Assembly (NCBI GenBank): GCA_963971405.1
Contig: OZ020490.1
Span: 12,696,874 to 12,760,873 of the forward strand
DNA: 64,000 bases
Direction of reading: 5' to 3'
Source of the DNA: Psococerastis gibbosa
Taxonomy: Eukaryota; Arthropoda; Insecta; Psocodea; Psocidae
Shown here: piece after piece, positions 16,252-63,766 of the stretch
How the letters are laid out: each line of letters begins with the position of its first letter
How positions within the stretch are numbered: position 1 is the first letter of the stretch
Translations under genes and position numbers: made by a program
The notes under the pieces: model-generated
Database searches by the model: none
Told to the model about the DNA's origin: nothing
The model's input: only the letters and a program-made list of their open reading frames with translations

Positions 16252-16492
16252 AAGAATTAGTTAAAAATACCAAAAATACCTCCTGACTGTTACCAGGCAC
16301 ACGTACACATACGTGCATAGGCCTATATGCACACAAACAGACACCCATATATGCACATGCACAGGCACATGCATACACATGCATGCCGCATACATACAAG
16401 GATATGCAAAGGGCATAAATGTATATATGTAGTAATTATACGCAGTTAACGTAATTTATTTAAAATAGCAGTACGTATGGTACAAACAGATT

Positions 16493-34960: not shown

Positions 34961-35048
34961 TTCTGCTAGTTTATAACTTCTGACTGCCTTTTCTCTCGGG
35001 TTTCAGGATGCGCGAAGATTAGTGTGTGGCAGTGTACTGGTGTGTGTC

Positions 35049-35123
35049 ATGGACTCTTCTCCCGAGCATACAGGTACAGGACCAAGGGACAGTCAGCAGT
35101 ATCTCCTAGGCACGGTCAGCTGA
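35049..35123 (+). promoter_or_regulatory. Possible upstream ORF before the 113-residue gene
   Basis: An ATG at 35049 opens a 24-codon frame ending TGA at 35123, 24 bases before the main ATG. A TTTCAG at about 35001-35006 could be the acceptor of a 5'-UTR intron. If this stretch is transcribed, the uORF may lower translation of the main frame. This is inferred, not shown. Confidence 0.3.
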
Positions 35124-35147
35124 TCAAACGTAACCTGGAGGCAAGCG

Positions 35148-38100
35148 ATGCGACGCATTTTTACCATTAAACTTATTCTTCTCCTAGTTTTGAATGGTAA
35201 GTTTCTAATCAAAAATCTAATCCATCGAATACTTGTCTTTAAGCTAAGTATTTAGAAAATGTGTAAAGCGGTGTCCACATTATGCCACCACTGGCTGTGG
35301 GCACTGCCAATTTGGCAAAGCCAACGCGGCAAATCTGATTGTTGGCCTCCTGTCTACACCAAGACCTGGCATTCTGTCGCAAAATGTCCGCCGAGAAGAA
35401 TGTACTAGGAGGATATACCTACGTGCCAAAGGTTGGCTCTCGCTGTTTTTTTTTTATGGAGACCGATACTAAGCGGCACATGTCAACGTCCACATTGTAT
35501 TGTGGTTTGCCAAATTGGCAGTGCCAACAGGCAAGGGCGGCATAGTGTGGACACCGCTTAACAAATGGACAGTAGACCGTGGGAAGAAACCTTCCGGGTG
35601 TAAAAAAAAATTAATTTTTCTGAAAATGTAGATGAGATATAAAAAAGTAGAAGAAATGTACATCTACATTTTGATGTATTGTGTATATTATATGACCGGC
35701 CGAAAGTTATACAGTAATGGTAAATACATATTTTTTACGACAAACGAACCTGTAGCCTGTACCTGAGCTATTGTATTATATATAACATGACAATATTCTG
35801 CTTATTTTTACATTTAGTTCATGTAATCATGTTACTGTTAGGTTGATGTGCCACCCTCACACGTTTCAGTTTGAGGGGGCACAGCTCTGTTATTCACGCT
35901 GTACCTATTTTTTATTATTTATTAAAACACGGATTTTAGGGAGATGGTGAAAAATGTTCGACTTTCGGAAAACCTTTCATTTCATGATCCCCTGAGCCCA
36001 AAACCACCCTCCGTTCAAAATGTTATATAGTAGGTATATACAGGCGGCCATTCCACCGGCCAATTTACTTCATTTGTGATTTTGTCATTGACGTTTGTTT
36101 TGTTTTAAGGAGACTATTATTTAGATACTTAACTTATCTATTATAACTTAATTTATAATAGATAAGTTAAGTTTCTACATAATAGCCTCCTTAAAACAAA
36201 ACGAACGTCAATGACAAAATCAAAAGTGAAGTAAATTGGCCGGTGGAATGTATATCGATTATAGGAAACACTCTAACTTCAGTAAATGTTATCTGATTTT
36301 GATGAAACTTGGCATAAAAATTAATCATACAAATGTCTTGATCGAGTTTGTTAACCAGCTAGATATACTATTTAGTTACAAGATGGCGGCCGATTGAAAC
36401 CTTGTATAATTCATGTCTCAGTTAATATTGGTCGCAGAGGAATGAATAAAAATCTGACTGAAAGCCCGTATTATTATCTACGATAATGGTGATCAACACT
36501 TTTTATGACAAATCAACCATTTTAAGATGGCGTCCAGTCAAAGTGAAAATAATTTGATAAGTAAAGTTCATAGTCGTCATTGTGATTCGAAATTTAGAAC
36601 ACACGAGTGTTTTGTGTGTTGATGTTGTGGTCGGGAAAATAATGAAGTATTTTCAATTGTTCATTACTAGTACATATATACATACCGCAGGTAGTGTAGA
36701 GGAAAATCAGGGTCTGCGGAATCTCCCTACACCTTATCGGCCACAGCTGAAAGGGATTTTTTATCCATGTAATTTAATTTCTGAAAATATAACGCATAGT
36801 GAGTCGAAGTTGGAGAATTCCAAGGAGTTCCAAAACTGTGGTCGACTGGTGTAAGTGACGACCATATAATATACATCAAAATGTAGAGGAGCATTTCTTC
36901 TACTTTATAACATTTCATTTATAACTCTCTAAAATAGATACTTAATGTGAAATTGAATTTTATACAAACACTGGCTGTGTGGTGTCCGATCGTCAATTAA
37001 ATTGTTTCATGACTAACTCACTAATTTAATTTTGTCGGTTGAAAAGATGGCGTTACTTTGTAAGCTTACACACGCCTTTTTTTAATTTTGTTTTTGGGTT
37101 TTCCCAAAGGCGGCCCGAGCTCAAATTTAATTACGACTTGATGAATTAGGATGGTAATAATCTCTTAAGATAATGAGTTTAGTAATTATCATAATTTTGT
37201 AGTGTATTAATATTATATAAGCAATTAGGCTTGAAGTTACTATATTTCCGGGCATGTAAAGCAGAGTGTTCCGGACTCCTTTGATTGAATACTGGCTATG
37301 GAAGGTTTTTAAAGCTCTAATTCCTGGGTGGATTTACCCGCGGTGAAATGTCTACACCTATTAAGTTACGATCGGCACTTTTTAACGTAACTCACCGACT
37401 ACTCTTAGACAAAGTTAATTTTTTAACGATTATTTGGGTTTTACTAATTCTAGTTAAATAACAATTTTTGCTAAAACACTATGTTTTTGTTTTTGTTTGT
37501 TCGCATTGTTCGGAAATAATTTGTCCCGCCCGGGAGTCGAGCCCACTTCGTACAGGTGGTAAGCGTAGAGCCCACACTTTAGTCTGTTGGTAAGGACCTT
37601 CGTGCGTTGGTTTTTGGGGACAGACAGACGGCCTTATGTGAATTAATGTATAGAGCTAACCACTGAGCTCATTTTACTAAAAGCGGCAAAAGAAATAAAA
37701 ATAAAAACACGCAACCTCGTCTATATCATCCCGTGGCTGGTGACCGTTATCTAAATCGCTGCTAGTGTAGCATCCACAAGATAAGTACGCAATTTGGCGG
37801 GGAAAGCAGTGATAAGTGTAGCCTGCACAAGCTAAGTACAGAGTTTTTGATCCGATCCAGGTATCCGTTCTGCTATGCTGCAATGTGTAAGACTTCGATA
37901 TTTTTTGCGTTGGTACTTATCTCTGATAGTTGGCTTATGGTTAACGGGTGCCTCATTAGGCATATTATGGCCCCCGCCGCTCCAATTAATGTATTTCTAT
38001 GGTCTATATAGAGTTCTATAGGATATAGGATACTTTGATTTTTGTTTTTAAAGTACTTTTTATGAACCCAGGCCTACTTACAGTGGCCCATTGGACCCTT

Positions 38101-41100
38101 GTCCAATGCCAATGACCCTATGGATTTCGGACATTAAATTTGTTAAAATTGGTACCTATACGTTCTCGATACACCGGCCATAAGCGATAATGGACAAGCA
38201 TGAATTAACAAAGTACAGATACGAGTCTATATAGAGCTCTACATCGGAGAGATAGAACATTCGCTCCATGCCAAAAATGGAGAAGGACGACGACGATGAC
38301 GAAGAAGATGAAAAAAAAAAGTAGTTTCATCAGACTACAGAAGCGCAAACAACAGTTTTTGTACACCCCGTCAAGCCTGAAATTTAAACTCAAGTTGGTA
38401 CTATAATATATAGGGGTGTCTCGTAAGGCAGTTCCAAACTTTAATCATAAACTTACCAGTTGCTTTATGTAGGCATAAATGGCCGGATGTCGCGCAATCA
38501 ATACTTGACTTTCCCCATAGAAATTGCTTAAAGTTGAGGACAGGGGTTGGGGCTTGGTTTCCTTTACAATCACAGGTGAGCACTGAAACAATGGATGAGC
38601 CGCTAAGGTTAACTTCGTACACTGTTTATGAATTAAGCTACCCTATTTATTGCTTATCTATTTTATACGTTATAGTGCAGAATGAAAGTTTTGCGATGGT
38701 AGATATTGTCGTTTTCGAGACTTCAAAGGATTTAAACGTGCTTAGGTCCCATGACCTAACTAACAACCATTGTTTTCACATGTTAATTGATGTATTGTTT
38801 GTGTTTTTAGTCTGACCATGGTTATGTGCTGGTCGCTTTAAATATATGTTTAGTATTTCTTGACAAAGTTATTTTATTATTTACTATGATGAAGTATTTA
38901 AAAGTAAATGTCGAAAATATTACTGAAGTCAAGAATTGAATTATCGATTTAACATGTTTAACGCGGTTAATGATAAAAATTCCGGATAGTACGATATCTG
39001 CGTGGTTACAATTACCATGATGATCGCCCATCTTCGATAGAAGGGGCAGATGGAAAAGAAGAACAAGAACAAGAAGAAGTAGAAGTAGAAGAAGAAGATG
39101 ATGATGATGAAGAAGAAGCAGAAGAAGATATGAAAACAAAAGTACTGTATGTATTCACAGCAGACCTGCCTACCGCATATTTTCCTCAGATACTGTAGTA
39201 TATGCCGTAAGTAAACAAAATTGAGATATTTTCATGATGCTTTCAACGAAGAAAGGTTGAAGAATGGATTTACCATTTGCGTGGTCTTTATTACAATTTA
39301 TTACAACATAAGCTCTCTTCTTCACAATTTTCAGATCGTTTTATTGAAAATTTGTCTTCCATTGTGTTCTGTTCTTCCCACGTCTATTGTTGGTAGAAGA
39401 ATCAAGTTTAACTGATAAATTTTTCGAATAAACCTTCTTATCATGTTTCCTACTGAGTACCAGCCATTTCTTTGAAAACCCGCCAGCCAGGGTGCTCTGC
39501 CAATTAAACAGACCAAATTATTATAACTTAAGTATTAAATGAAACACAAATGTGAACGGCTGGGGTGGATTTTGGGAAATGCATTTTTCTTTCTTTCTTT
39601 TCCTCTTAACTTGAAGTTGCACTCAGTTCCTTTACGCATACTGTCTGACCAGTCTTACAATACTATACAAGGCTATTGTACCCAGTGGCGGCTCGCCTTT
39701 AAAGGCAACCTAATTTTCCAAATAACAGTAGAATCCGTTTATTATGACTCCGCCTATATTGACCAACCGCCTATTATGACGCAATTACACAAGGAAGTTT
39801 GGTTTTCTTTAAGGCTTTGTATATACTTACGCTTTATATGACATCTGCTTATTATGACGTGTTTGTCAATTCCCTTCGATGTCATAATAAACGGATTCTA
39901 CTGTAGTGTATTTTGAATTAGGAAATGTAGGCTAAACAAATTCTAGAAGAGACAATTAAAACTTTATAAAATACCGCGAAAATGCAGAACTAGCTTAAAA
40001 TTCACAAGGACTAGCTATAACGATGCAGAGGCACCATTTCCGACTGCCTCTCCATTGCTAGAAGACAGGCACGAATTGAAGCTGTTAAAAGCTCAAACAG
40101 CGTGAAGATACATACTCAAAACATTCGCTGCACCCAGCTCAATGATGAGCCGTTGAGACACGTGCTAGACCCTGCATCTAAACGAGTTAAACACACGCAC
40201 AGCTTTATTTTATATTTTATTTTTGTATGCTGTGCCTCACAAATTTATATGCCCATGAGCCGCCACTGATTGTACCTATCTATGACCTACCTACTCAAAT
40301 CAGCATGACATAATAATGCGAACCACAATCTGTGAACATAATTGGACAGCACTCAATCTATTATCTAAATGCCCTTGATGGAATGCACTATGCAAATTGA
40401 TGGATAACATCTGATCATATATGGTCCACGAGGGAGGCAGTTAAGGGCTCTGTAATACTTGCCCCTTCCCCCTGCTTACGACCCGCTATGTAAATCACAC
40501 CCCCGGATTGCAGAATCCAGCGGTCATGTAATGTGTTTTGAGAGCTGTAAAACAAAACTACACTCGGATAACTTTTTTTTTTGTATTTTTTATTGTTAGA
40601 GTGTTATTATTGTATAATGAACATGAACGCTGAACACCTCCTGTCGTGCCCGGCGATCGACCACACACCAACAAATGAAGACGAGTTCGAAAAGATCGCT
40701 ACTGGTCAGCGCGTCACCAAATGGCCGACATGCCAAGGGTGGGCGTTGGCTAGTAAGTAAGTAAGTATAATGAACATACGGTATATAGTCGGTTATGCAA
40801 GGTATGATTTGGTACGACAACGAATTGAGGATCTAGGCGTAAGTTCTGGTGGGGGATCCTCTTCCTAATTGATCTAATTGGGATGTTATGGCCAGCAACA
40901 TGCCCGGTCGTCGCGTTTCCCCCCTAATGAAGTAGAGGATATTGAAGAAGATAGACAGCTGCTACCTCATATCAAAATTAGAAGAGCGAAATGGGAGGGG
41001 CATTTGTTAAGACACGAAAATCTGGTGCACACCACCATTGAGGGCACAGTAGAAAGAAGTGAAAGAACCAATAGAAGGAATAAATGGATCAACTGAAGGA

Positions 41101-44100
41101 GGACGCAAGAGCTCGAGCGTACCAAGAGCTGAAGAGGAAAGCGCAGGACCGAGAGAGTTGGAGAATGATATGCAGGGAGTTGCTGCCAATCAATCGTTCA
41201 TATTCTGACCTCTGAAGATGAGTTTGGCCCCAAATCGAGTTACTGCCGCTCATTATATTCGTTTTAGGCGGTTGCCTGGATATTGAAACTGAGTTAGTTG
41301 GTTCTCCAACTTTCGTTATTAAAAAAATTCCACCGTAATCCCATTTCTGCTGAAGAAGGTAAGGCAACATCACAAAATTGGAAGAAAAAACAACGAAATA
41401 AACTCAACTTGAATTTTTAAAATCCCCAGACTTTGTTTCAATTTAAAGCTTTGCCCGAAATTAACCGTATAAGCCTCAAAAAAATATTTCGCCATTTTTA
41501 TTCACAATTTTGTCAATCTTTCTAAAGAGATAAAGTGACTTTCATTTATATTCTGTTTAGATGACAATTAAAAATCAAGATCCCTAGGAGTCTTAACGCT
41601 GAGAAAGTATTGTAATTCATCAGGAAAGCACTCGGGGCAGGGGGGGGGGGTGTTGTCCCCACCCGCTGCGCCCCCCCTCCCCAAAGTCAACATCGTCTTG
41701 GAAAAGTCCCAAAGTGCCCCTCAAAGGCGCCTCTTTCTCTAACGGACAACTCCATTACTTACACTTGGACCGATTAAGACATTTCCTAGCTGACGTCAAT
41801 TGGCTTTGTTTTGGTTGGCTAACTTCACTTTAAAGGTACTAATCAAATCCAAGTGCGGGGGTGGGACTTTCATTACAAATTTAAATTCACATGTAGTCAC
41901 GGTACCCCTAAATTCATTAAAACTATAGTCAGAAAACCTATAGGACTTGCCCTCAACATTTCCTCTTCTTGCGTTTTTTCGTCTATCCCCGGAGCGTCTG
42001 TCGCCACCAGTCTATACTAGGGCAGTGGCTCTTCAGCGTTTTTTTTACTGCAACCCCTTTTGACATTTCGCATTGGTCTTGCGGAACCCAAGTAATAAAA
42101 TACACATAAAAGTACTTCATACCTCATGACTCATACCATTGTAAAGTGTAAAGTGGATGTTCTATCAGTGTCGATTGTCAACCAATATTTTATTACTAGC
42201 TTACATTACTTTAGTTATCTTAATTCGTAATTTATTACTTGTATTTAAACTAATTTTTACTTTTAAAGGGGGGCCCAGCATGGGACTTGTCCTTATGGGC
42301 CCCCCTTCCATTTTTAATATTGTAAATGTTGCTGTTTAATTTGATTTGATAATAAATTTGATTTGATTGTGAAGCTAGATTTTCCGCAATGACTACTATA
42401 TGGAAACCAAAAACAGAAACTGCCTGCATAACTTGGATCACAATTTATACTACTTTACTTCTCAATAGCACCAATATAAGATCTCAAATTCGTGAACTTA
42501 TTAAGAAAGCAAGCAAGAGGGGGATGCCCTCACTGATTTGATCCTTTTCATCATTTTTAATTCAAAATTATACTTCTTTAGTGTTTAGCGACCCCCAGTT
42601 TAAGAACCACTGTATATATCGACTTCGATGGCCAGGTGGTAACGTGCTTGCACTTGTGCGAGTCTTTACACGCCATGCAATCGGAGACGTGTCGTACTCA
42701 TCACGAGTAATAACCTACAGAGGCGACTGAAAAGGCCAATCGGATACATTCATTAAATTGTTTGTATGCGATTTATCTATAAAAAAAAATAAAAAAAAAT
42801 AAAAACAATAGAAGACTTTACGAATTTTTTGAACGTTTTTTTTACTGCGGCCTCTTTTAACATTTTGCTTTGGACTTGCGATCCCCATGCAATAATACAC
42901 ACTTAAAAGTACTTCATACCTCATGACACATACCATTGTGAAGCTGGATTTTCCGCAATGGCTACTATGAAAATCAAAAACAAAAACCAGCTGCAAACTT
43001 TGCACCACAACTTACTTCTCAGTAGCACCAATAAACGAGTAAGACTTCAATGTCACGAACTTATTAAAAGAAAGCAATTTCATCCACCTCACCGATTTGA
43101 TCCTTTTTTATATTTTTAATTCAAAATTATAGTTCTTTAGCATAATTTCTTAGTTTTTTTTACATTTATTTAACATACAATAGTTAGCGCGACCCCCGGA
43201 CCGGTTCTCGAGACCCTCTGCGGAGAGGTGGGGTTGCTACCCCCAGTTTAATAACCGCTGTATATACAAGAGTCAAGACATTACTCCAGCAGCGGCGATC
43301 TGGCTAATTGGAATAAGTACACAAAGTGAATTAAATATTAGATAACTGCAGTTACGATGTACACAGTGTTTCGTTACCTTAAATTAATAGTCGGCAGTGA
43401 GTTGACTCTTTAAAATTTGGGCAGGAGAGAGATTTTTATAGTCAGCAAGGCCGTTCCCAGGTTTTGATTTCGGGAGGGAGGGTTCAATTTTTTTAAACGT
43501 AAATTTATCAATTAAATTCCATTCTGTTCAGTGTTCAAGCTCAAATAAATTTATTCCCATTCTTCAAACAATGCAGGTTCACACCTCTGTGTAAGCCATC
43601 TCTGGTGCGGTCACAGCAACTTTCATAATCAAAGACCTATTAGACTTCAAAAGCTTTAACGGCTTTGACAACGACTACAAGCTGTTTTCTGCGTTTCTGC
43701 CAATAATGACGACGTTCTCTGCCCCCAAACAGGCACAATCAGGGCCGTAGCGCTGAGAAAAGACTTAGGGGGGCTGGGTATCCTTTTGGGGGGGCTAGGT
43801 TTTTTGGGTTGTCATAATCAGATCTAAGCTATTCTCCGTGAATCCTAGCCACTAATGTTATTATAAACCTGAGGGGGGGGGGGGTGTTTAGAACCCCAAG
43901 ACTTTCATCCCCCGGAGAAAAAAATTGATAAATAGGCCCAAATTAGTGAGGTTTTACGCATTTTATCCCCTGGAGAAAGGGGCGCCCGGGGGTCTCCCCT
44001 GGAGAAAACAGGGATTAATGGGCCGAATTTAGTGAGGTTTTACGCATAGTATAACTTGGAGAAAGGGGGGCCCGGGGGTCTCCCATGGAGAAAAAAATGG

Positions 44101-47100
44101 ATAAATAGGCCCAAATTAGTTTTACGCATTTTGTAAGCAGTATACAGTTGAGATTGTACCGACGAATAAACCTACCACTGAGGGGGGCCCGGGGGTCTCC
44201 TCCGAAGAAAATGTTTGAAATAATAGGTCTGAAATATTGGGGTTTTAAGCATTTTGAGTAGTATATTTTTGTGAAAGTAAGTTAATGCGTTGATTTTTTC
44301 ATGATGTCTTTCATGTAAAATATGCATACCAAGAACTAATTTCCCTTTCGTTATTGTGGTGTTATATGTAGTTAAACAAATATTGTCCCTTCATTTTTTC
44401 AAAAACAAATTGACAATGGGCTAAGTAGGCCTATAAATCAACAATTACAAATAATAATTGTATGAAAATCAATACAATTGCAGCCGTGACGCTGTGTTTT
44501 GGGTTTGTTAAAATTTCTACAAAACTCTTCGGGCAGCCACGCATCGGGCTGTAATATTGAATGAGTACGGGGTGAAACATCAGCGCAGAATGCAACTGGT
44601 CTTTGAATAGCTCAATGGTTTATATAGGTATTGTAATCCATGCATTACAATACATGTAATTAAAGTGAGTTTACTAAGTCTACACTCTACCTAACCTATC
44701 TACCTGCTGTTAAAATATTTCCATTAAAATGTGCATTTGTTCGTATCTAATAAATTATAAATTTATTTTGATGGTGTTTTTAAGTACCGTACCTCTCTTT
44801 TTTATATTATAATAAACTGAAGTGTACTGTCAGAGGAATCCGTTGCTCCGACACTCTCTGAGCACAAATTTTTAATAAAGGAAGTGGAAGGAAGTTCCAC
44901 CTGTCATTTGCTTATTAATTCAAAACTGTTTTAGCTTCCTCAGCAGTCTTAGTTCTGTCAGTCTCCAGCATTTCTACATAGGCGCGGTTTCCACCGACCT
45001 CTACATACGGTGACGTGGTAGCAGATATCATTAATAAAGGCGGGGTTTCTAACGTCACATTTAAAACCCCATTTTATCTAGTTAGGTAGGGGGAGACATA
45101 ATTTGTATCGTTAATTAGGTAAAGGTTAACTTTTATAATGAAAAAAAGTCGTCATTCATGAATTCATTCATGGTTTTGGTTACAGTGCTGAGTGCGCCGA
45201 GCCCGCAAGGCAGTCAGCATGGTCCCCCAGCGGCAGGCTCGATGTCGACCCCCATACCTGGCTCTGTCGGTACCAAACCTCGAAGCAGGTTCAAAAATGC
45301 GCAACGAGCTGACCCAACCTTGCTCAATAACCTGTGGAGGAGCACTACCCCACTCGGTAAGCAAAATAAAACACGGTTGTACAATATATGCATTCTGTTT
45401 AGCTGCTTACATTAACATATTTTCCACGGACAGTTGTAGAGTATATAAAAATCAGTTAGATAGTGTTATACATATTGTAAGGCGTAACCTGAGGGACACA
45501 ATGTCAGGTTACAAAAAAGATGGCGAATCGGGTTACAATAAACCGAAAAAGCTGCAGTATGAGCTACCGTACGCGACCGGTTTGGAACTAAAAAAAAAAT
45601 GGTATTTTAAACAATAATTAATGTGAGTAACTTCATCTAATCTCCTAAACATCTTTTACCGTAACATAAAAAGTACATAAACCTAATTGCTAATAAGTTG
45701 AGCTCTGGAAGTTTGTTAAGCATTTAAGTGTACGATTTTAACGAAAATTACCTAATTAATAGTGTTATTAGTTATAAAGTCATATTATCTATTTTGAGAC
45801 CGCTTTTTATCTTGTAGGGAAGAATGCGGGTGCGCAGGAAACTTCTTAGTGCCGCTGTGCGCAGCGTGTGGGGGTCGCCCCGGATCCATTTCTTATACGA
45901 TATGTATCCGAGGCTTCCATTTGTGTTATGCATCAGTAGTACCACTGTGTAGCGACAGTGGGGAGATGATTTCCATCTCTGGGCTCTACCTACTGGGGAG
46001 TTTTCTGTTAAGCCCCCCCCCCCCTTAGCCTTTGGGTCAATACCCTTCCCTCAAGACACTGAGGTGGATGACCTCTTGCTCAGCTGTCTCTTCCGCCGTT
46101 GTGGTGTTTCTAGACGCCATCATCTTCCGCCATTGGCATTAGACTTGTACTTATTGAAAGGCGGTGTTAATCTAGTTCTTCCGGTACAGCTTTGGTCGGC
46201 GTTTTATCCTATTTTATAAGGGACCCCTCCCCACTTGGGTTCCCCGCCACCTCCTCCACTACCACCCATCTTCCTTTCTCAAAAGGACTTGGGACCAGTG
46301 GTGGAGCGTGAGATAGTTGCGAATGTAATGCTTGCAAATAGGCTATTTATTTATGTCGTTAAAGTTAAAAAAAAGAAAATAAATTACGCATAGCATGTTC
46401 TATCTTCTTAAAAAGTAAAAATTTGAAAACAGAAAAGAAAACACGCATCATTTTATGTACCGGTAGCATGTTCTATCTTCTTAAAAAAAGTAAAAATTTG
46501 AAACAAAAAAGAAAACATTTGAATTCAAACGTGGCGAGATTCTTAATTTTCTTACACTGCGTTGATAACATCATACAATCTTATTTCCTCGCGGCTTCCT
46601 ATAGATTTCAAGGAAGCTCTTAAAATACATTCTACGGATTTGTTGATTATTGAGGGTAATGCGGCATTACACGCCATACATACTGTACATGCACGCTTCG
46701 TCACTGCTTGGGACCATTTACGGCGGAGTGCACAGGAAACAACGTGTTGATTGAGGGGAAAACTTGACAAGATAATTTACATTTAACTGTTCTCATTCAT
46801 TCGTATAATGCAACATAACGCAGTAAATTCATGACAATGTTGCAAACTTGCCACTAATTTTATCCAGGACATGGGTATTTACTTTCCTATGGCATTACAA
46901 TAATATTCAACACAATATTTTTATATTTCCATTAAAAGTTAAGTTGCAATAATTATAATAATGCTGCAGGGCTCAGACCGCGTGTGCAGCTTAAATTTAA
47001 AAAAAAAGGCCTAATCCAACATTCCGTAAGTAAGTCAGTAAGTAAGTTGTTTAGTCTTCGTTTGTCGGGGTTAACTCGTTGAGATTTGTTTTTAGATATT

Positions 47101-50100
47101 TTCGAAATACGTTCAATTGTTGGATAGTTTTTACGTATGTTGGGAGTCTGTTGTAGTGCGTTAGTCGGTAGTCCTACACTCCTATGTACTAGGCCTTTTT
47201 TGACATTTTCCGGGGAGCCATCATCGGATTTTTCGCGAGAAACAGGACACATTGTTTGGTGTGGGCCGGCCCTTTCACTAAGACCCTAAACCTGTTTTGA
47301 CTGCCCTTAACTTGATTAAATCAACAGTACCCTCCATTTTTTCAATTACTTAAACCCTCTTTTTCTGTTATTTTTCGTCATTCTCAAGCGTTACCGGTTT
47401 TTTGAGTTCTGTCCTAAATCCTGAGGAGGGTATCCTTTAGTTAATTAGATCAACACCGCTCCCAGAAATTCAATCCTCAAATCCTTTTTAAATTCATTTA
47501 GTAGGAACGGGCTATACAGGGCCGAAAGTCTGGGTATGGGGCTTGGAGGTATTCGAACCCAGGATCTATACGCCTAACCGGGTGTCGTCTCAACCGCTGG
47601 ACCAAAAAGAGGGCTGGTTCTATTAAAAACTTAAACATTATTTTTTATAAGGTTACGATAACAATAGGCTAATAGCCTAGAAATACAATACTTTTCTATA
47701 TTATTGCTGATAATACGAAAATAGGCGTGTGCTTACATCTTTTGCCTCTTCAAATGCCTATCGTCTATCGAAGATTGACGATCATCATCGCAATTTATTG
47801 GTCCTTGGAGACTACTGCTTTGAAAAGGGAAGTCGTGCCAATGCCTCAGATTTTTCAACCATTTTCAACCCAATTTTTCTGCAGGGAACCTTATGTCTTT
47901 CTATCTTTCCTTGGATTATTACAAAAGGAAAAGCGATCCTTTAAAGTAAATAAATAAATAATTACTTTTTGTTCTATTACTGAGCCAATCTAGCGGAGTT
48001 AGGGCTGTAAAGCCCTGTCTTACACCGCCTGCTTTACATGCCCTCCGAAGCATAGCTAGAAAATGTAGCTAGTGTGGGACTCGAACCAACAACCTTTCGG
48101 GTGAAAGTTGGAGTCTTTACCACTACTCTACATATCCTTTTCGTTCCCTATCACACAGACGAAGTGCAGTATGTTTGATTCCGTTTTTAACCGCCAGCAG
48201 CAGCTCAGCGGAGTACTGAAATGTGACCAATACCAGAGCTCATTTTATCTTGAGCTGTGAGTTGTTAGTAAATATTTATTCTATGAGTATTAATTATAGG
48301 TATAATCAATATTCAATGAGAAATTCATTAGGAAGTGGAGTCAAAGGTTTGATAATTAACATTCCAATAAATATCTGGCAGCACTGCATAAAAAAAAAAT
48401 AACGCTTAGGAACGCTAAGAAACCCCCCCCCCCCTCCCCCACCGATTAATTCCCCCAAGAAACTCTGCGAGGAAATTTTCAGTATAAATCATTAATCTTT
48501 GTTAGTTCGGACTGGATTAAAAGCTCATTATATTAAAAGCTTAAACCGCCATCACCTCTCTCAATTTATTCCCTTTAAAATTTAATTTGCAGATTATGGG
48601 TAGCTAAGAAAAATGAGTTCGCGCCAGCTTGCTTGGCTTGGCTTTATAGCAACCGAGACTTTTCTTTGGGGGGAATTGGGGTAGTTCTCGAAACGGGAAG
48701 TGTATGAGGGTTGTTTAAGCAGCAAAAGAATTGAAATAAAGTATGACTTTGTGGGTTGTTGTGGTTGATTTGTTTCTGAAACTTTGCTTTCAAGCATGGT
48801 TCACTAGTTCTCTGAAGTTTTCCAAAATACAATACCTTGATAATGCCATACATATAGTAAATGAAGTGGAATGAAATGAAAATGAGCCTTTACTGGGGAG
48901 CTTTGTGCTATTCATAAAGCTACCCCTTCAACAGTACGGTACAGTGGACTAGTTATTCCAATATTTTAAACGAAACTATAAATAAATAAAAAATTATGGG
49001 ACAGGCGAAAAAAAATTAAAATAACTTTGTCGAGTAGGCCTATTACTAAAATACATATGTAGCGACCTGTTTCAGCACTAGGCTATCGTCAGGCTACAGA
49101 AATATAAGCAACACTACATAAATCGGCAAGTAAAAACAATGGTTCCGGATATTTATGTTGGTGGCAATGGAAAATTGGCGGCAAGCTCCACTAGCAGTGA
49201 CCTCATAAAACTAAGGCGAGGGCAATTTACAAAAACGGTGACGTGGTAGCAGACATTCAAGACTTAGGTGGCGTTTCCACTGACCTCGCATTGCAGATTG
49301 CAAATGACATTGACGGAAATGTTTGTTTTTCTTTTTATAGAAAATCTATTAAAATGTTTGTAATTAACATATCCAATGACGCCATTTTTTAATTTTAGTT
49401 TGTTTGTTTGTGATTTTACTGTATGATCATTGATCAATTTTAACTATGGCATAGAGGAAAATAAACATTTCCGTTAATTCTGCAATGCGAGGTCGGTGGA
49501 ATGGGCGCCTTACATCGATAGTAAAATTTTTCCTGAGTTCATAGTTGTTTTAATTTACTCTAGGGAGTATAGCAATTTTCCCTTACCACCCAGGTGCAAC
49601 ATTTTAAAATCATTAAAATTACAAAGATGGCCTGGCATGTTTGTATGGTAGGCCAGAGCGGAAGCTGTTTCAGGCTTGCCTGTGCCCCTTTGTGCTCTTT
49701 TATGCAATCCTAAAAATACCTTCCGGTTTGGCCCACATGAAGAATATCCCATATGCTGCAGTCTATTTCGTACACACCCGACCTTAAACATTTCTCTACT
49801 GACGGCTTCAAATCAATGAGATATTGTGATATAATGATTCTTTCTATATAATAAGCATGTTGACTATTTTTGACCAATTTGCCGCCCTCCCCCCCCCCTC
49901 GCTCGATCGTTACGTTACTGCCTCTACCCTACTTACTTAGGTAGGCGCATCCAGCCCGGGGGCTTTAGGCCGCTGCCACTACACCACGCCATCTCGGACG
50001 ATCTTCTACTGCTAGCTTCCAGTCTCGGGTACCGGTGGTGTGCACATCTTCGAGCACTTGGTCTCTCCGTCTGAGCGTTGGCCTACCGGGCCGCCTAGGG

Positions 50101-50527
50101 TGGTTGAAGGTGTCTTCGAACACCAGCTTCGGCGTCCCCTCCGCCTGCTTACGGTGCACATGACCCAGCCATTGGATTAAAGCCCTTTTAGTTCTAATAT
50201 TATGTTTGGGGGAGGCGAATATGTACCCTACCTATCTATTTGGAAGTTGGTTTTTAGGAAGTAAATTCAACATAGGTCCCGTGATCACAAAAAACATTAA
50301 ATAAACATAGCACAACAAAGCATCAAACATGGCGGGCGCGACCAATATGGCGGCTAAAAACAGCAAATACCAACACTATATCTATATCTATTAATCTATT
50401 TACAGGTAACGCGGAAGTTTACATTGTCCTGGCTCTACTCATCGGATTCATCACAGTCGTCATCGGCTGCTGGCTCAGCGATAACTGCTGGTCACCAGAA
50501 CCGGAGCATCTTGTCACAATTGCGTAG
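35148..50527 (+). CDS. Three-exon gene for a 113-residue single-pass membrane protein
   Basis: The coding exons are 35148-35196, 45186-45356 and 50406-50527. All junctions are phase 1 with good sites: AATG/gtaagt, ttacag/TGCTG, CTCG/gtaagc and ttacag/GTAACG. The joined frame is open and ends TAG at 50525. Residues 1-20 are a signal peptide (MRRIFTIKLILLLVLNVLSA). Residues 21-75 form a Ser/Pro/Gly-rich, basic ectodomain with no N-glycosylation sequon. VYIVLALLIGFITVVIGCW (about 78-96) is a membrane helix. The short tail has CWLSDNCW and an acidic/Pro end, EPEHLVTIA. I infer a type I plasma-membrane or secretory-pathway protein. The family is not recognised and its function is unknown. The introns are 10.0 and 5.0 kb and full of transposons. 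Confidence is limited by the absence of transcripts or homologues to check against. Confidence 0.68.
35267..35558. mobile_element. Harbinger-like MITE in intron 1 of the small membrane-protein gene
   Basis: The left end AGCGGTGTCCACATTATGCC is mirrored by the right end GGCATAGTGTGGACACCGCT. The arms are ~65 bp and include CACTGCCAATTTGGCA. TAA flanks both sides (35264-35266 and 35559-35561), fitting the 3-bp TWA target of PIF/Harbinger elements. It begins only 70 bp after the exon 1 donor. Confidence 0.75.
36043..36250. mobile_element. MITE-B copy, foldback
   Basis: The arms CATTCCACCGGCCAATTTAC and GTAAATTGGCCGGTGGAATG are exact mirrors. CTTAACTTATCTATTATAA is mirrored by TTATAATAGATAAGTTAAG at the centre. 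A second copy is at 59065-59300. There is no coding capacity. Confidence 0.8.
36251..38049. other. Intronic, mostly unrecognised
   Basis: A SINE-C-like scrap (GGGCATGTAAAGC) is at about 37252-37340. A tRNA-like block in reverse (GGGAGTCGAGCCC near 37530) is also present. ORFs of 60-90 codons here lack features. The rest is unassigned. Confidence 0.4.
38050..38225. repeat. Repeat Z copy
   Basis: ATGAACCCAGGCCTACTTAC, CTATGGATTTCGGACATTA, ATACGTTCTCGATACACCGG and AAGTACAGATACGAGTC correspond to 31085-31320. An old R870 scrap follows at 38655-38765. Confidence 0.5.
39001..39125 (-). repeat. GDHHGN repeat fragment followed by a purine-rich run
   Basis: ATTACCATGATGATCGCCCA and TCTTCGATAGAAGG are the reverse of the 19480 repeat. 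A GAA/GAT-rich run (39055-39127) follows, the counterpart of the CTT run that starts the 19480 copy. Confidence 0.45.
39683..40268. mobile_element. hAT element (hAT-4) with exact 8-bp duplication, carrying a pogo-like MITE
   Basis: The ends CAGTGGCGGCTCG and GAGCCGCCACTG are inverted. The flanks ATTGTACC at 39675-39682 and 40269-40276 are identical. It is 586 bp including the nested element at 39726-39903. It has no transposase, so it is non-autonomous. Confidence 0.85.
39726..39903. mobile_element. pogo/Tigger-like MITE nested in hAT-4
   Basis: CAGTAGAATCCGTTTATTAT and its mirror ATAATAAACGGATTCTACTG form ~24-bp perfect ends. CAGTAGAAnCCnnTTATTA-type ends are typical of pogo-group elements. 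The interior (178 bp overall) has no ORF. The expected TA target duplication is clear only on the right. Confidence 0.7.
40600..40770 (+). pseudogene. LINE ORF2 C-terminal stub
   Basis: The frame reads MNAEHLLSCPAIDHTPTNED and then TKWPTCQGWALASK before a stop. AEHLLSCP is the end of the C-terminal zinc motif of LINE ORF2 proteins (compare AEHIICSCP in the LINE at 24611). A GTAAGTAAGTAAGT run follows as a probable tail. It is a 5'-truncated relic. Confidence 0.5.
40880..41215 (+). pseudogene. LINE ORF2 C-terminal relic (RTE/craTA-like tail)
   Basis: HIKIRRAKWEGHLLRHENL and then RNKWI are followed in the next frame by ARAYQELKRKAQDRESWR. This is the RRLRWxGHLLRM...GRPxxRWxD...AQDRxxWR tail of LINE reverse transcriptases. 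Only the last ~100 codons survive, with at least one frame change. Confidence 0.65.
41216..42020. other. Intronic, no family recognised
   Basis: G- and C-runs around 41640-41690 look like the debris of a hAT-type end. Nothing else is supported. Confidence 0.35.
42023..42613. mobile_element. hAT element (hAT-5, Charlie-like ends), with inserts
   Basis: CAGTGGCTCTTCAGCG at the left and AGTTTAAGAACCACTG at the right are inverted and look like the CAGTGGTTCTnAA ends of Charlie-type hATs. The interior (ACTGCAACCCCTTTTGACAT, TACTTCATACCTCATGAC, GATTTTCCGCAATG) is shared with 42830-43262. A LINE 3' end is inserted at about 42142-42370. The left flank TATACTAG and right flank TATATATC only partly match. 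Confidence 0.7.
42142..42370 (+). repeat. LINE 3' end inserted in hAT-5
   Basis: This ~220-bp block is absent from the second hAT-5 copy. It ends in ATTTGATTTGAT-type units, contains GGGGCCCAGCATGGGACTTG, and is bounded by near-identical ATTGTAAAG and ATTGTGAAG. This is the pattern of a 5'-truncated LINE with a short simple-repeat tail. Confidence 0.55.
42619..42790 (+). repeat. SINE-A copy
   Basis: TCGACTTCGATGGCCAGGTG, ATGCAATCGGAGACGTGTCG, ACAGAGGCGACTGAAAAGGC and TTGTTTGTATGCGATTTATC, then an A-rich tail. It abuts the right end of hAT-5. Confidence 0.75.
42830..43262. mobile_element. hAT-5 second copy, left end missing
   Basis: ACTGCGGCCTCTTTTAACAT, TACTTCATACCTCATGACAC, GCTGGATTTTCCGCAATG and the end CCCCCAGTTTAATAACC follow the first copy. 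It has a ~90-bp extra segment (43150-43240) not in the first copy. Confidence 0.65.
43446..43760. repeat. Old hAT-3-like remnants
   Basis: CAAGGCCGTTCCCAGGTTTT at 43448 and CAGGGCCGTAGCGCTGAG at 43740 are left-end-like sequences of the hAT-3 type, both followed by G-rich tracts. No matching right ends or duplications are found. Confidence 0.4.
43900..44240. repeat. Degenerate minisatellite, unit about 84-88 bp
   Basis: The module GGAGAAAAnnnnGATnAATnGG, then CCCAAATTAGTGAGGTTTTA, CGCAT and CCCGGGGGTCTCC recurs at about 43913, 44001 and 44085. A more eroded unit follows near 44190. Units vary by short deletions. Confidence 0.75.
44985..45060. repeat. MITE-C end fragment
   Basis: GCGGTTTCCACCGACCTC and GTGACGTGGTAGCAGA are terminal blocks of MITE-C (49235-49509), rearranged. 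It lies about 130 bp before exon 2 of the small membrane-protein gene. Confidence 0.5.
45357..46295. other. Intron 2 of the small membrane-protein gene, GC-richer block unexplained
   Basis: From about 45820 to 46260 base composition turns GC-richer, with CGTGTGGGGGTCGCCCCGG and several CC-rich runs. It may be the 5' end of an unrecognised retroelement. No open frame or family is recognised. Confidence 0.35.
46296..46706. mobile_element. hAT-1 element with exact 8-bp duplication
   Basis: The ends CAGTGGTGGAGCG and CGCTTCGTCACTG are inverted. The flanks CTTGGGAC at 46288-46295 and 46707-46714 are identical. The interior matches 3687-4188 and contains a local duplication of AGCATGTTCTATCTTCTTAA (46391 and 46457). 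It has no ORF. Confidence 0.85.
47010..47255 (-). pseudogene. LINE ORF2 C-terminal relic
   Basis: On the - strand the frame reads YNRLPTYVKTIQQLNVFRKY and then LKTNLNE, the WNxLPxxIRxxxSVxxFKxxLK tail common to Jockey/CR1-group LINEs. TTACTTAC-type repeats follow as a tail. It is 5'-truncated. Confidence 0.5.
47550..47610 (-). repeat. SINE-B tRNA-like block
   Basis: The reverse complement reads TGGTCCAGCGGTTGAGACGA, then CACCCGGTTAGGCG and TGGGTTCGAATA. Box A and box B spacing equals that at 385-450. Confidence 0.6.
47730..47905 (+). repeat. GDHHGN-type dispersed repeat
   Basis: TATCGAAGATTGACGATCAT, TTGGAGACTACTGCTT and GTCGTGCCAATGCCTCAG line up with 19480-19640. The frame reads RLSKIDDHHRNLLVLGDYC. 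Confidence 0.45.
47947..48136 (-). repeat. SINE-C copy, well preserved
   Basis: The reverse complement reads ATGTAGAGTAGTGGTAAAGA, then TTGGTTCGAGTCCCACACT (box B), GGGCATGTAAAGCAGGCGG, AGGGCTTTACAGCCCTAACT and a TTATTTATTTA tail. Confidence 0.8.
48137..49029. other. Intronic, nothing recognised
   Basis: A C-run lies at 48423-48440. No gene, RNA or repeat family is supported. Confidence 0.4.
49030..49850 (-). mobile_element. Penelope-like element remnant, split by MITE-C
   Basis: On the - strand at 49850-49555, one frame reads CSIWDILHVGQTGR and then IKEHKGAQ. This matches the GIY-YIG endonuclease region of Penelope-like elements, here damaged by frame changes. After the MITE-C insertion (49235-49509) the tail at 49130-49050 reads GCCTGACGATAGCCTAGTGC and then TGAAACAGGTCG, like the conserved 3' end of Penelope elements. 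Only the 3' part is present. Confidence 0.6.
49235..49509. mobile_element. MITE-C copy inside the Penelope remnant
   Basis: It is about 275 bp. The left end ACGGTGACGTGGTAGCAGAC...TTTCCACTGACCTCGCATTG is mirrored by the right end CAATGCGAGGTCGGTGGAA. The interior matches 2150-2390 nearly base for base. No ORF is present. Confidence 0.7.
49925..50200 (-). pseudogene. LINE ORF2 C-terminal relic
   Basis: The - strand reads MHRKQAEGTPKLVFEDTFNH, then PRRPGRPTLRRRDQVLEDV and RDWKLAVEDRPRWRG, followed after a stop by WMRLPK. This is the GRPxxRWxDxVxxD...AxDRxxWR tail of a LINE, in an open frame of 64 codons. It lies 200 bp before exon 3. Confidence 0.6.
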
Positions 50528-56957: not shown

Positions 56958-59900
56958 ATGTCAAACCCAGCCGACAACCCAAAAGATGATAATAGACCCA
57001 AAGGAAGACGTTTATCAACAATGTTTATGTACATCAGAGAAGCTTTGTTTTTCTTTGCGCTCATGTTCACGTCGTATGCGACATTTTTTAAAAGGTATGT
57101 ACCTATTTCTAACTGTTGTTTGTAATGATAGCTTTATGGCTCACCTAACCGTTCATTCAGAATTCGGATGGGACATTGGTAATGGCTCATTTGTGTCTCA
57201 TGACCTCATGCTGTATGGGTCTGAGTGCTGGGCTGCACGACAGTGAGAAGAAAATATGATTCACGTAGCAGAAATGAGAAGGCTGAGAAGATCCTGTGGC
57301 GTGACGCTGAGAGACCAACGTAGAATCCAAGAGATAAGATAAGAGATGAGAACCCGGGACGTACTGAAGAAACTCAGAGAAAAGAGGCTGAACTGGTGGG
57401 GGCACGTGCTATGTTAGAGACGAAAACCACGTAGTCAAAAGAGTAACGAACGGGGAGATACAAGGAAGAAGACCACCAGGTAGGCCGAGAGTTACACTGG
57501 GAAGAAAGAACGCCGGGGATATGGCAAGTTTGGGGCTCTCCACCGAGGACGCACAGGACAGGACTCTGTGGAGACGCTGCTGTAGTGCCGCCGACCCTCC
57601 ATGAGGATAAGGTGCAGTAAAAGTAAGTACCTGGTATCAACGATATAAAATGTTTGCTTATCGTAGACGTAGTTGCATTCGTGTTTAAAATACTAGCTAC
57701 TTTTTACTTTAATCAACGCCCGTCCTTGACTTGTCAGCCATTTGCAAAGTGACCCAGCCCCAGTATATCCGTGCTCTTGTGCCTATTGATTCGTCGCCGT
57801 TCTCTTGTAGGACTGGACAGTCGGCCAGTAGCCTCCTCCAGCGAGCAGAGGAGTTGAGCTATGCAGATCCTAAATGTGGTCAACGCCACTTCCCGGCGCA
57901 GGTTGATTATAATGGGTCATCCTATATTTCCTTGATGCTCCCGCGATAGAATAACAATGCTAATATTTTGTTGTAGTTGATCGGTACTAATTAAGAACCC
58001 TGCTTCCTTTGCTTTGCTTTTGCATTCCCAGTACTCATTGCTGACCTCTCTAAAATGGCAATGGTAATTTGTTAAGCATTTGTACCAGACCTTGGTGGGT
58101 CATGGACAAAGATTGATTGATTGATTGGTTTTCCAGTTTACCGAGAGTCGGAAAATCACCACCGTCTGTTCCATTTTTTCCTTCCTCATCGGTAGTGGCG
58201 GACTACTACAGGGGTGGCATGGGGGAAGCCTTCCAAGAAGCGGTCAGAGCCGACCTGGCCGTGGTCATGTATTACGCTCCATGGGATGCAGAGTCGCAGG
58301 CTGCTCGTCCCGTCTTTGACTCAGTGGCTCGATTATTCCATGATGAGGTATATATTATAGTATATTTCCCAGATTAAAGTAATACAATGTTTTTTATGCC
58401 ATCTACCATCAGTGATTTTAAATTTCAAAAAGGAAATATACTGTGCGTGTGGTTCTTAATCGAACCGATTCACCGACATTCAATTAATTTACCATAATCC
58501 TCCTGATTACACTCTAATATTGTTCCAATATGCGATCCAATAAATATGGGTCGAAGAAATATTGGACAATATGCCACAATTTAGATTCAAATCGTATGTG
58601 AAGAACCAGTAGAATCCGGGCTGACGGGCCGTGGTCGATATGAAAGTGAACTTCAAAACGTTTCGTCAACATCTGCGTTCGACAACTTCAGTGGCGCTGC
58701 GTAGACTTCGTTCGTAGGTTGTACCGAGATCCATCAGCCCGGGTTCTACTGGTTCTTCATACGACTCCGGCCGTGAAAGCCTTTGCAGTTACATCAAATC
58801 GTATATTCAAAATGTGCATAACAAAATATGTCGAATATATCGAATAAATATTAGAGCGTGTAATCAGGGCCAATAATCAACGTTTCAATTATCAGTTCAG
58901 AGACAAATATAATATCTAATTAAGTATCAAACGCAGATTCGCAGAGCTGTTCAAAATATCTAATAGAATATAGGCTACATAATATTAAAATACATTTTCC
59001 TACCCTTTTTTAAGTTCCAGAACTGTGGCCAACCGGTGTTAGTGACGGTCACACACTGATTCCTTAGGCGGCTATTCCACCAGTGATTTTACTTCATTTT
59101 TGATTTTGTAATTGACGTTTGTTTTGTTTTAAGGGGACTATTATGTAGATACTTAACTTATCTATTATAAATTAAGTTATAATATGGTAGCAGACAACAT
59201 TAATAAGTCTCTAACATATTATAACTTAATTTATAATAGATAAGTTAAGTATCTACATATTAGTCTACTTAAAACAAAACAAACGTCAATGACCGCCTTA
59301 GTGATAGCGCTACAGTCGATATTTCTCATTGCATTTCATTATTCAAACATTTATGAGAAATTTCCCCTCCGGCTGTATCTTAATGTATGATTGCTCTTTG
59401 AGGCACAGGAAGATGATGATAAAAATGTTTTTCTTACAGATTTTTTTCGCTGCAATAAGCTGCTGGTCGCCATCTAGCGAGTGCAAGCAGCACTATTCGA
59501 AAATTCGCTCATTCCCAGTGCTGGTCGCTTATCCACCGTATGGCGTTGGAGTCCAATACAGAGGGCCTTTAGTCGAAGGCTATATGATCCGCTTCTTGCA
59601 AGCTTTACTGCGCCCTATTCATCGTATTCACTCGCAAGAAGACATTTTGCACCTTTTAACTTCTTATACTGTAAGTCACTCATACTGCGTGGATACGAGT
59701 CAGAAACTGCAGCGCACATCCTATCCTTATGCAGAGCGTTCTGACGACAGAGGATGGTGTGTTTTTGAACAGGTGTTTCCCGATAGCGCCACAATAAAGA
59801 ACAGCAAGCTTGCAGGCTTAACTGGACCGATGTAAAATAAGTGTCGTATTAAGGGGACATGCTCCGTAGAAAATTAGCACCACAAAATTTTTTGTTTTTA

Positions 59901-62900
59901 TTTACTTTTTATTTAATTAACAAAACAAGTTATTAAAGATTTGGCTCATGTAAGTTGTAGAAGACTACTTCATGCATAATATAATAGGAAATATTACACT
60001 TTTGGTAACTTAGTTCTTTCATAAAAACCAGTGGGGACAAAAATTTCGCGTAAAATATAATTTTTGAAAAAACTACAAACACAATAAGTAAAAATACCCG
60101 ATTATATAATGCACGAGGTAATCTCCTACAACTTACGTGAGAAAAATCTTTAATAACTTTCTTTGTTAATTAAATAAAAAATATTCAATTTTGGGGTGTC
60201 AATTTTCTCTTATTAAACACAATAGACTGATGTCAATACGCTGTTCAACGGGTCTAATGCGACCTAATTAATTGAAAATAAAAATAATACTCATTCTGCA
60301 ATAAAAAGTGGCAAACCGTGCCATTGATCAGTTACTATACGTCGATTTTAGAAAATGAACACTGATCTCTTTAATTATTGTGTCCCATCCTTAGGGGCGG
60401 GGTAAAAAGGATGTCAGTCGGTTCGGAGTCGCCCATATACATAGACTAAATTTTTGTTTCAGGGGGTAGTAGTGGGCTCGTTCTTATTCGAGGGTAATTT
60501 GGGTGGTAGTGGGTACCACACCTTCTATACGTCGGCACTCAAGACCTTGGAAAGGGACTTCAATCATGATATTGCATTTGCAATCACCACCAACTCCGAG
60601 GACGCGGTGGCACTTAATATACAAGAATTACCAGCAATAAGGTATGTTGCATCGTATAGAAATACTTCTTTTTTCTTGCTTGAGGCATCCTCAGTCTATT
60701 CCAAGTGGAGGCAAGCCTATGGTACGGACACTGAAGTCTTTCGCCATGGATTGCAATAACCGAATAGGAATAATCCGAACAACCTCTTTAGTCGCCTCTC
60801 TAGGTGATACTCGTGATAAGATCGCTTGCTGTCTAGTGACTACCACAAGTATTAAAGTTCTATATAGAAGTGATGGGATATTCGAGCGCGCCAAAAATAT
60901 TTTTTGAATCCTGGGGCCACGTGCAACGGTTTTTCAATGGCTGGTCGTAGGAGATAAAAATATATTTTTGGTGACAAGCGAATGTCCCATCGCTCCTATA
61001 TCGAACGCTAACCAGTATGGGCAAGCTATCAAGTATGCCACCGACCAGCGACCACAAGGTAGATTCTTTCTTTGTAGAAGATACATTGCTCTGTAGCATA
61101 TTCTTTAGTTTCATTTTACAAGGTAAAGAGACGTTTTATTTACTTGCTTATGTTGGCTCTATAGTCCGCTGCTACCGATCGACGCTACCTTTTATTTACC
61201 TCTTCCTCAGTCATGTCACAGATATTCTGTTTTCTGGATTATTGCCGAACACCTTCTTGGGGACTCCAGTTCCATCAATTCGCATGACCCAGCCATCTGG
61301 ATCTCATTATTTTATGTCATTAATGTTGACTGAACCGTGTTTCATTTCTAGATTGCATTTTTGGAATGAAACTCATGAATTTCCACTGGATGCCGAGTAC
61401 ACCGTGGAGTCAGTTTCGAATTGGGCGTGGCAGAAGACGCATCATCTCGCCAAATGGGTTAGTCTTCCTGGAGTTAAAGCCACGACTCTCTCCAAGTTCA
61501 TCTCGAGCAGACCGACACTGATGGTGTTTACTCCGGGACATCCTATGTTGTCCAACCAGCCTGTGCCTAGTCTAGTAAGTAATGGCTCATTTATGCTAGG
61601 TTAGGTGAGGTTTACAGCGAAAAAAACATATGATAAGCTTGCTGACTGTTTATTTTTACAAGGCATTGTTTTTTTAAGAGAATACACTGTACCCTAACAA
61701 AACTTAATATGACGTCTCAACAATGAGTAACCGAACAGTCCTGTTGAATACTAGTTCGAAAGTGCAGTCAGCAAATGTAAGCAGTAAGTCTGCACTAGAC
61801 TTCTTCTTCAAGTTACAACCGGCTGGCTGGTTGACAGCAACATGTGGCATCGATGCTTCCACTCCCTTCGATCCTGGCACGCCCTCTTCAACTCCGCGTA
61901 TGTACTGCCCCCTTCATCCTCCATCACATGCTGTAGATACTCTTTTCTCGGGCGTCCAGGTCGGTTGGCGCCTTCTATGGTTCCTTCTATGATGCAGCAC
62001 TAGTAATAACTCTAATCTAAAAAGGTTGTTAGTTCGAGTCCACCACTAGTTACATTTTGTGCCCATATTTCAGAGGGCTACCCTAGTTTCTAGGTGGATT
62101 TAATAACATAATAATTACAGATCTTTTGTTTTTGACCGTACCGTATTCTTATTTCAGGTAAAGGGACTTTCTCTTCGCTATAACATATGCCCGCCTTGGG
62201 GGACGCCATTAGTTGATAAAATGGATGAGTTGACTCGTAGTATTCACAGAAATATCCAGAGACTGGAGCTGAAATGCTTACGGCTGAAGCAAGTTGAAAT
62301 GGCCAAGAAAATGGCTACTAAAACGGTGACGTCTACTGTAATTGCTGCAAGTGCGCTAAATAATCGTAGTGGATGCAATGCTTGCCATGTTAGCACCACA
62401 GTTTTGGGTCCTCAGTTAGAAGTTTGTGTGAGACCTATGGGCTCGGTTGCTGCCAATAAAAGTACTCCAATAAGGTACATTCAAATTATTTACCTTAACA
62501 TTTTAATTGTTATAATTATTATATATATATTATTATAATTAATTTAAAAATCATAAATTATAAATAATAATATATAATAAAAATATTGATTGCCTTTTAC
62601 ACAACGCAAGTTAATGGCATGCAAGGCAGTTGATTTCAGAAACGGCCGTCAAGACCTGTAACGCTTGCATAGGGGTAGATCATATGGATAATTTAAGAGT
62701 TTCTGTTTGGAGACTAACCCAAAGTATAAAAAAATCAGGGTAAGCTAAATGTGTCAACTTTTAAAGGGATTGTCGGCAGGAAGCGACGGTGGGGATTACT
62801 ATTCTCAGCAGTCCCTTAGGTCGTACATCAACGCGCACCGGAGTCCCAGTTATCCCATATTTCTCCATTTTCTTCCTCAGCTTTACGGCGAGATTTGAAG

Positions 62901-63766
62901 CCCACAATATCTTTTGGCTTTCATTTCTTAATGTGGTGAAACAGAAAATCATGTTACTTAACCATTTCCAAACACCCATTTAGGCCTACTATTGCAGTAT
63001 TAATTTGATTAATTGTGAATGACAAAATTTCTTCTGTTAAAGAGAAATAACAAAGTATTACATATATACATATGTATATACATATATGCTAACGTTATTA
63101 TATGACTTAATTTTGTTTTCAGGTACGACACATCAATGTGGGACAATGAAAATGACAGACGGGGGCCAAATTCTCTCCTAAAGAAAACTGAACGGAAACA
63201 GTGTAAATTATTGGAGAGAACGCATTCTCATAGTAAAATTTACTACCCCAAAATGTCGGAAAATGCGGGTAAAACGGTTGGCGGTTTATCGTGTGTAAAT
63301 AATAGAACTTTAAATTTTGTTGTGTTGGACTCCCTGCTTCATTATCAAATTGCGGAGGGACTCGGTGTTGATGTTATGAACCGATCTGATAAGACATTGG
63401 CTGTTATCGTTGATCCTAAGGTAAATATTAAATAAATAAATAAAATGAATAAGCATTTATTTGCAAACAGACCTAAACGCCCAATAATATAGCGTTTTAA
63501 ATTTACTTTTTTTTGTATTCCAGGCGGAAAGTCAGTTCATTTTAAAAGAACCGTTGACGGAGACCTCCTTAGCCGGTCTAATAGTTAATTATACAAATGG
63601 GAAATCGGAGCGGCACCTGAGGGTGAGCGATGTGGACCGTAACGTTTACGGTAAACATAGGTACCTCGTACGACCAGTTGGCCTGTGCCAACACACCGAT
63701 ACTGAATCTTGTGTGATAGAACTAAATTCTGAGAATTTCTTGTCACATGTTATGGATCCTAATAAG
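56958..63766 (+). CDS. TXNDC11: TXNDC11, thioredoxin-domain ER membrane protein (3' part beyond the window)
   Basis: The coding exons are 56958-57094, 58137-58347, 59440-59670, 60463-60641, 61352-61574, 62158-62474, 63123-63420 and 63524-63766. All junctions are GT/AG and phase-compatible, giving 613 codons with no stop. The ATG follows an in-frame TAG (TAG CAA GTA ATG). Residues 1-21 are polar and basic (KGRR), then ALFFFALMFTSYATFF is a signal anchor, so the rest is ER-luminal. The first thioredoxin-like domain has MYYAPWDAESQAARPVFDSV (D96, S99) and AISCW (C124). The human protein, as I recall it, has PWCAQS and NCW. Matching blocks follow: GPLVEGYMIRF, TFYTSALKTLERDF, a CNAC motif aligned with human CELC, GLSCVNNRTLNFVVLDS and VIVDPK. 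The second thioredoxin domain and coiled coil are not in the window. Known role: an ER thioredoxin-like protein linked to DUOX maturation and ERAD in vertebrates. Confidence 0.93.
57200..57620 (+). pseudogene. LINE ORF2 C-terminal relic in TXNDC11 intron 1
   Basis: MLYGSECWAARQ, then MIHVAEMRRLRRSCGVTLRD, EKRLNWWGHVL and AQDRTLWRRCC are the classic tail of craTA/RTE-type LINE reverse transcriptases. Several stops and frame changes are present. A GTAAAAGTAAGT run follows. Confidence 0.75.
58600..58758. mobile_element. Short MITE in TXNDC11 intron 2
   Basis: GAAGAACCAGTAGAATCCGG and its mirror CCGGGTTCTACTGGTTCTTC form 25-bp ends with one mismatch. The mirror continues outward as CGTATG/CATACG. 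It is 159 bp with no ORF. The class is unknown. Confidence 0.7.
59065..59300. mobile_element. MITE-B copy in TXNDC11 intron 2
   Basis: TTGACGTTTGTTTTGTTTTA is mirrored by TAAAACAAAACAAACGTCAA. The centre repeats TTAACTTATCTATTATAA and its mirror. A block ATGGTAGCAGACAACATTAA at the centre is related to MITE-C end sequence. It ends 140 bp before exon 3. Confidence 0.75.
59849..60216. mobile_element. TTAA-flanked palindromic element in TXNDC11 intron 3
   Basis: TTAA at 59849-59852 and 60213-60216 bounds the element. The arms include TTTATTTAATTAACAAA mirrored by TTTGTTAATTAAATAAA, and CATGTAAGTTGTAGAAGACT mirrored by AATCTCCTACAACTTACGTG. The arms are diverged. It is a relative of 33837-34234. 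Confidence 0.65.
61995..62100 (+). repeat. SINE-C fragment in TXNDC11 intron 5
   Basis: GGTTGTTAGTTCGAGTCC (box B), ACTAGTTACATTTTGTGCCC and TTTCTAGGTGG correspond to the middle of SINE-C. The head and tail are lost. Confidence 0.5.

Follow-up and report, generated by a model that had tools for sequence, protein, structure and literature searches.

In the window, that is, the whole stretch of 64,000 nucleotides of the Psococerastis gibbosa genome that was analysed (C15:12696874-12760873), three short exons on the + strand are best explained, taken as a whole, as a genuine protein-coding gene with a small membrane product, and this reading is considered probable. The exons are 49, 171 and 122 nt long. 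The first intron measures about 10 kb and the second about 5 kb, and old repeats occur in both. All introns are bordered by GT-AG, as read from the + strand sequence. Once spliced, the 342 nt hold no internal stop and give 113 aa plus a stop codon, with phase 1 at both junctions. The spliced product is MRRIFTIKLILLLVLNVLSAPSPQGSQHGPPAAGSMSTPIPGSVGTKPRSRFKNAQRADPTLLNNLWRSTTPLGNAEVYIVLALLIGFITVVIGCWLSDNCWSPEPEHLVTIA. The original prediction had described these three exons with their lengths, consensus splice borders, phase and 113 residues, and all of this was re-derived from the sequence.

Gene structure

Coding exon 1 (35148..35196, + strand) encodes MRRIFTIKLILLLVLN, which is signal-peptide-like. 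Coding exon 2 (45186..45356, + strand) covers about residues 17-74 and encodes a Ser/Pro/Gly-rich segment followed by a basic one. Coding exon 3 (50406..50527, + strand) contributes the membrane helix, C95 and C101, and a tail with a VTIA end that is closed by a TAG stop at 50525-50527. Phase 1 introns are common between the signal, ectodomain and helix exons of secreted and membrane proteins.

The start codon of the gene is fixed by an in-frame TGA at 35121, 5' of the exon 1 ATG. Exon 1 probably also has a 5' untranslated portion, at 35007..35147 (+ strand). The strong acceptor at 35007 (score 4.89) suggests that the exon really spans 35007-35196 and that the 5' leader of the gene may be spliced. 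Upstream ATGs are found at 35008 and 35049, ahead of the exon 1 start. The donor of exon 1 scored 6.12, which places it in the top 10 among the 3606 GT sites of the + strand.

Splice sites were scored with matrices of generic consensus frequencies, untrained on this genome, and hydropathy was calculated according to Kyte and Doolittle (KD). When the thresholds of a chain search were set strictly at the observed values (the splice scores, a first-exon KD of 2.75 over 10 residues and a helix KD of 2.6 over 19), a single first exon and a single last exon passed on the + strand of the window. These are the predicted pair, with compatible phases. Two middle exons link them, namely 45186-45356 and a shorter form, 45237-45356. 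On the - strand of the window no first or last exon of such quality was found.

Coding signal of the exons

The coding model was built from 32 fragments with 8129 codons. Of 30 kinase loci, 24 contributed, and of 9 sugar-transporter loci, 8; the other six kinase loci and the other sugar-transporter locus were dropped for internal stops. The noncoding set, with windows that overlap each other, was picked by the author from within the window, and the noncoding model was trained on it as well. As a check, all eight exons of the neighbouring gene, with approximate borders, scored above 0 in their own frame (1.6 to 10.9 bits).

Exon 3 displayed a coding score of +15.3 bits in the predicted frame, versus -12.6 and -5.7 bits in the others. 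Among 6986 open noncoding windows, which overlap and come from both strands, 4 reached this value. The score was still +11.3 bits when the model was trained on kinases alone. The GC3 of this exon is 24/39. Exon 1 scored -2.8 bits, with 16974 of 27294 open noncoding windows equal or better, and its coding score is not informative. For exon 2 the score was -6.8 bits, a level attained or exceeded in 1658 of 2684 open noncoding windows. An alternative frame scored slightly more, -4.9 bits, but it contains a stop. Since a Ser/Pro/Gly-rich segment is ill suited to a coding model derived from kinases and transporters, the exon 2 score is judged uninformative rather than negative. Over the whole coding sequence, codon choice was 10.6 bits better than noncoding composition, and against the base composition of the coding sequence itself there was no gain (-3.2 bits).

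It is unlikely, though it deserves the most weight among the alternatives, that exon 3 is real, and perhaps exon 1 too, while the middle is wrong or incomplete, with another or an extra exon, or with exon 2 starting at 45237. The coding model gives exon 2 no coding signal, the form 45237-45356 chains with the same ends at the observed values, and a stretch at 40600-40752 does so at looser thresholds. The latter reads by eye as the tail of a retroelement frame, which argues against it. Moreover, the predicted frame is the only one without a stop across the whole of 45186-45356, and its phase fits both sides. The exon is also a sharp GC island, with a GC content of 0.60 where the 200-nt flanks have 0.365 and 0.35. 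In the 34.7 kb regarded as noncoding, counted on both strands, only two open AG..GT intervals of 90-300 nt equalled its splice scores, and their GC content was 0.46 or less.

Comparison with chance

A second alternative is that splice-like sites and hydrophobic codons of A+T-rich noncoding DNA were linked by eye. Exons 1 and 2 do score as noncoding, and with looser thresholds (splice scores one bit lower, hydropathies of 2.0 and 1.8) a chain was present in 11 of 120 simulated strands. In the window the same thresholds gave three chains on the + strand, which share exons 1 and 3 but differ in the middle exon, and none on the - strand. At the observed values, in contrast, none of 1000 simulated 64-kb strands (order-3 Markov) contained a chain, a result that overstates the case because the thresholds came from the finding itself.

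The composition of the helix was also considered. T-rich chance membrane helices from noncoding DNA are described by Vakirlis et al. (PMC7005711), which would favour a chance origin. The helix of exon 3 is, however, rich in C-ending codons; its GC3 is 0.737, whereas chance helices average 0.34 (one of 11 as high), and its T content of 0.298 is below that of all 11. The chance set is small (n = 11, from the noncoding DNA of the window), and a set of real helices with n = 2 only gave a mean GC3 of 0.58. The high GC3 and low T content count against an origin of the T-rich kind described there. Together with the coding score of exon 3, these values make a chance assembly very unlikely, and a genuine three-exon gene remains the preferred reading.

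Repeats and neighbouring loci

No repeat was detected that overlaps any of the three exons, in searches that skip very common words, though repeats adjoin them. An old interspersed repeat lies in the last intron (50250..50375, + strand) and occurs at 11 further places with 76-82% identity. The block common to eight aligned copies stops about 30 nt 5' of exon 3; four of the 11 further copies match as far as 50402, 3 nt short of the exon. None of the 11 matches into the exon, and a repeat-derived exon 3 was thus rejected, as was a retroelement gene, the three exons being free of any repeat match apart from the very common words skipped.

A further repeat ends near 34960, 5' of exon 1. An element of about 70 nt (44979-45049), 136 nt 5' of exon 2, is present dozens of times in the genome, frequently in inverted pairs spaced about 310 nt, and resembles short DNA transposon ends. 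An inverted repeat at 36049-36250 consists of two 101-nt arms that are 93% complementary with no spacer, and similar sequence was seen by eye near 59080-59290. On the - strand, a stop-to-stop open frame of 1591 aa (6250-11025), with a further frame at 5723-6289, is presumably a BEL/Pao-type retrotransposon polyprotein; that it is still open suggests a recent insertion. Two probable non-LTR retroelements were observed on the same strand, one at 12529-16260 and 16493-18019 (open over 1243 and 508 aa) and a second at 24698-28321 and 28299-29690 (1207 and 463 aa). Each has a long endonuclease/reverse transcriptase-like frame with a gag-like frame upstream.

Downstream, a TXNDC11-like gene with eight exons (56958..63766, + strand) is unfinished at the end of the window. 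We take it to be TXNDC11. Its spliced frame of 613 aa matched the Pfam Thioredoxin family with an E-value of 1.2e-6; when three of the open frames that carry its exons were searched one by one, Pfam gave no match. The small gene as a 5' part of this neighbour was rejected: its stop lies at 50525-50527 and the neighbour begins with its own ATG at 56958, so that the small gene is separate.

Two observations were made at other loci. A tRNA match at 383-455 (+ strand) scored 30.4 bits against an Rfam threshold of 29 bits, and ARAGORN makes no call there; it is perhaps a tRNA-derived repeat. The mitochondrial contig (17,084 bases; L051, L052) has ND3 between ND5 and ND4 and not after COX3, with gene names assigned by eye, and it also carries a tandem repeat block. 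This position of ND3 is an unusual gene order for an insect. The mitochondrial frames are readable in the invertebrate code, a trait that, like the retroelements, points to an insect.

Protein features and predicted topology

The N-terminal stretch is hydrophobic with a basic start. The maximal KD value over 10 residues was 3.22 within residues 1-25, and 2.76 in exon 1 alone. One further membrane helix was found, with a KD of 2.62 at residues 80-98. In the 113-aa protein, 19-residue windows above 1.6 start solely at positions 1-5 and 71-83, so the hydrophobic N-terminus and the single membrane helix that had been proposed are well supported. The product is most likely a small single-pass membrane protein with a signal peptide and a short acidic tail.

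The charges flanking the helix were read from the sequence. Those before it are K47, R49, R51, K53, R57 and R68, giving a net positive side, and those after it are D99, E105 and E107 with no Lys or Arg, giving a net negative tail. Positive charges C-terminal of the helix, as in type I proteins, are absent. This pattern contradicts the positive-inside rule and leaves the assumed topology, with the N-terminus outside, insecure. The earlier interpretation was sustained in the three-exon gene, the hydrophobic N-terminus, the one membrane helix and the lack of a recognised family, and weakened as regards topology. C95 and C101, at or near the membrane border, may possibly be palmitoylated. If the N-terminus is not a signal peptide, the tail could be outside and the two cysteines could then form a disulfide instead.

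A way of working can be proposed in which the gene is predicted to be expressed and exon 1 would serve as the signal peptide, with an n-region MRRIFTIK and an h-region LILLLVLNVL as judged by eye, and cleavage likely after S19 or A20, also by eye. Exon 2 would supply a short, disordered Ser/Pro/Gly-rich ectodomain that includes a basic stretch, and exon 3 a membrane helix at about residues 78-96 followed by the acidic tail. The protein would follow the secretory or endosomal route with a single membrane pass, and its tail bears an acidic dileucine-like motif, E105xxxL109V110. Among the roles that could be imagined, the border cysteines and this motif make that of an accessory subunit of a larger membrane complex, or of a regulator of its trafficking, the most likely, and even so we infer it only as a doubtful one.

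Search for relatives

The 113-aa protein had no significant family match in Pfam and NCBIfam. In the PDB nothing significant was found, with three chains at E-values of 0.56 to 8. The statement that it belongs to no recognised family agrees with these results. Within the 40-aa peptide of exon 3, residues 9-31 matched Vps55 (PF04133) weakly (E 0.051). Membership was rejected, as the match reached 13.9 bits against a cut-off of 24.6, covered 22 of 120 profile positions and involved the exon 3 peptide only; the overlap is mainly the hydrophobic helix, and the whole protein matches no family.

In the 409-Mb genome of the insect itself, where the best candidates only were scored, no second copy was found. 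Besides its own exons there was one match (E 2.8), which was taken as chance. Among viral contigs, one of 15 pattern-matched stretches was confirmed (L050), with 42% over residues 2-49 and an E-value of 9e-8, calculated among the candidates only. This match depends on an exact PQGSQHGP; since it is loose elsewhere and lacks a helix after it, the relation was taken as chance. None of 76 pattern-matched stretches from prokaryote genome contigs was confirmed. A degenerate CW..DNCW tail pattern matched 59 viral stretches, and in tblastn mostly the pattern alone aligned. The best of them aligned over 17 residues at 65% (L093 and L100) and over 23 residues at 48%, including part of the helix (L064). 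These were likewise judged chance, because the pattern itself had selected them. The lack of real viral or prokaryote relatives is as expected of an animal gene. The string CWLSDNCW was not found in the literature searched.

Comparison with known small membrane proteins

The paper on Purriato, a smORF peptide of Drosophila (PMC10036370), describes small open reading frames (smORFs) as having fewer than 100 codons and assigns Purriato to an ancient family that has expanded in Protostomia. With such insect smORF membrane peptides the protein of the small gene shares its small size, a membrane-spanning segment and the lack of a large domain; it is set apart by its 113 residues and its signal-peptide-like N-terminus.

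The small protein resembles transmembrane adaptors such as LAT and PAG in its short ectodomain, its single helix and the cysteines next to the helix, which in the adaptors lie at the cytosolic border. Their tails are long and rich in tyrosine, whereas its tail has 17 residues and no tyrosine.

The small gene is thus a probable instance of a common kind of protein whose family is not recognised. It is possible, if still well short of probable, that it founds a small membrane-protein family so far undescribed and restricted to one insect lineage, with a fast-evolving ectodomain and a conserved helix and CWLSDNCW tail, which would regulate a receptor or transporter complex. If transcribed, it would be an example of a gene overlooked by single-frame open reading frame lists, with its exons of 49-171 nt scattered among repeats across 15 kb, and would lie outside the coverage of the protein-family libraries searched. 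It is one more candidate for the insect small membrane proteome, within a general view that stays unchanged.
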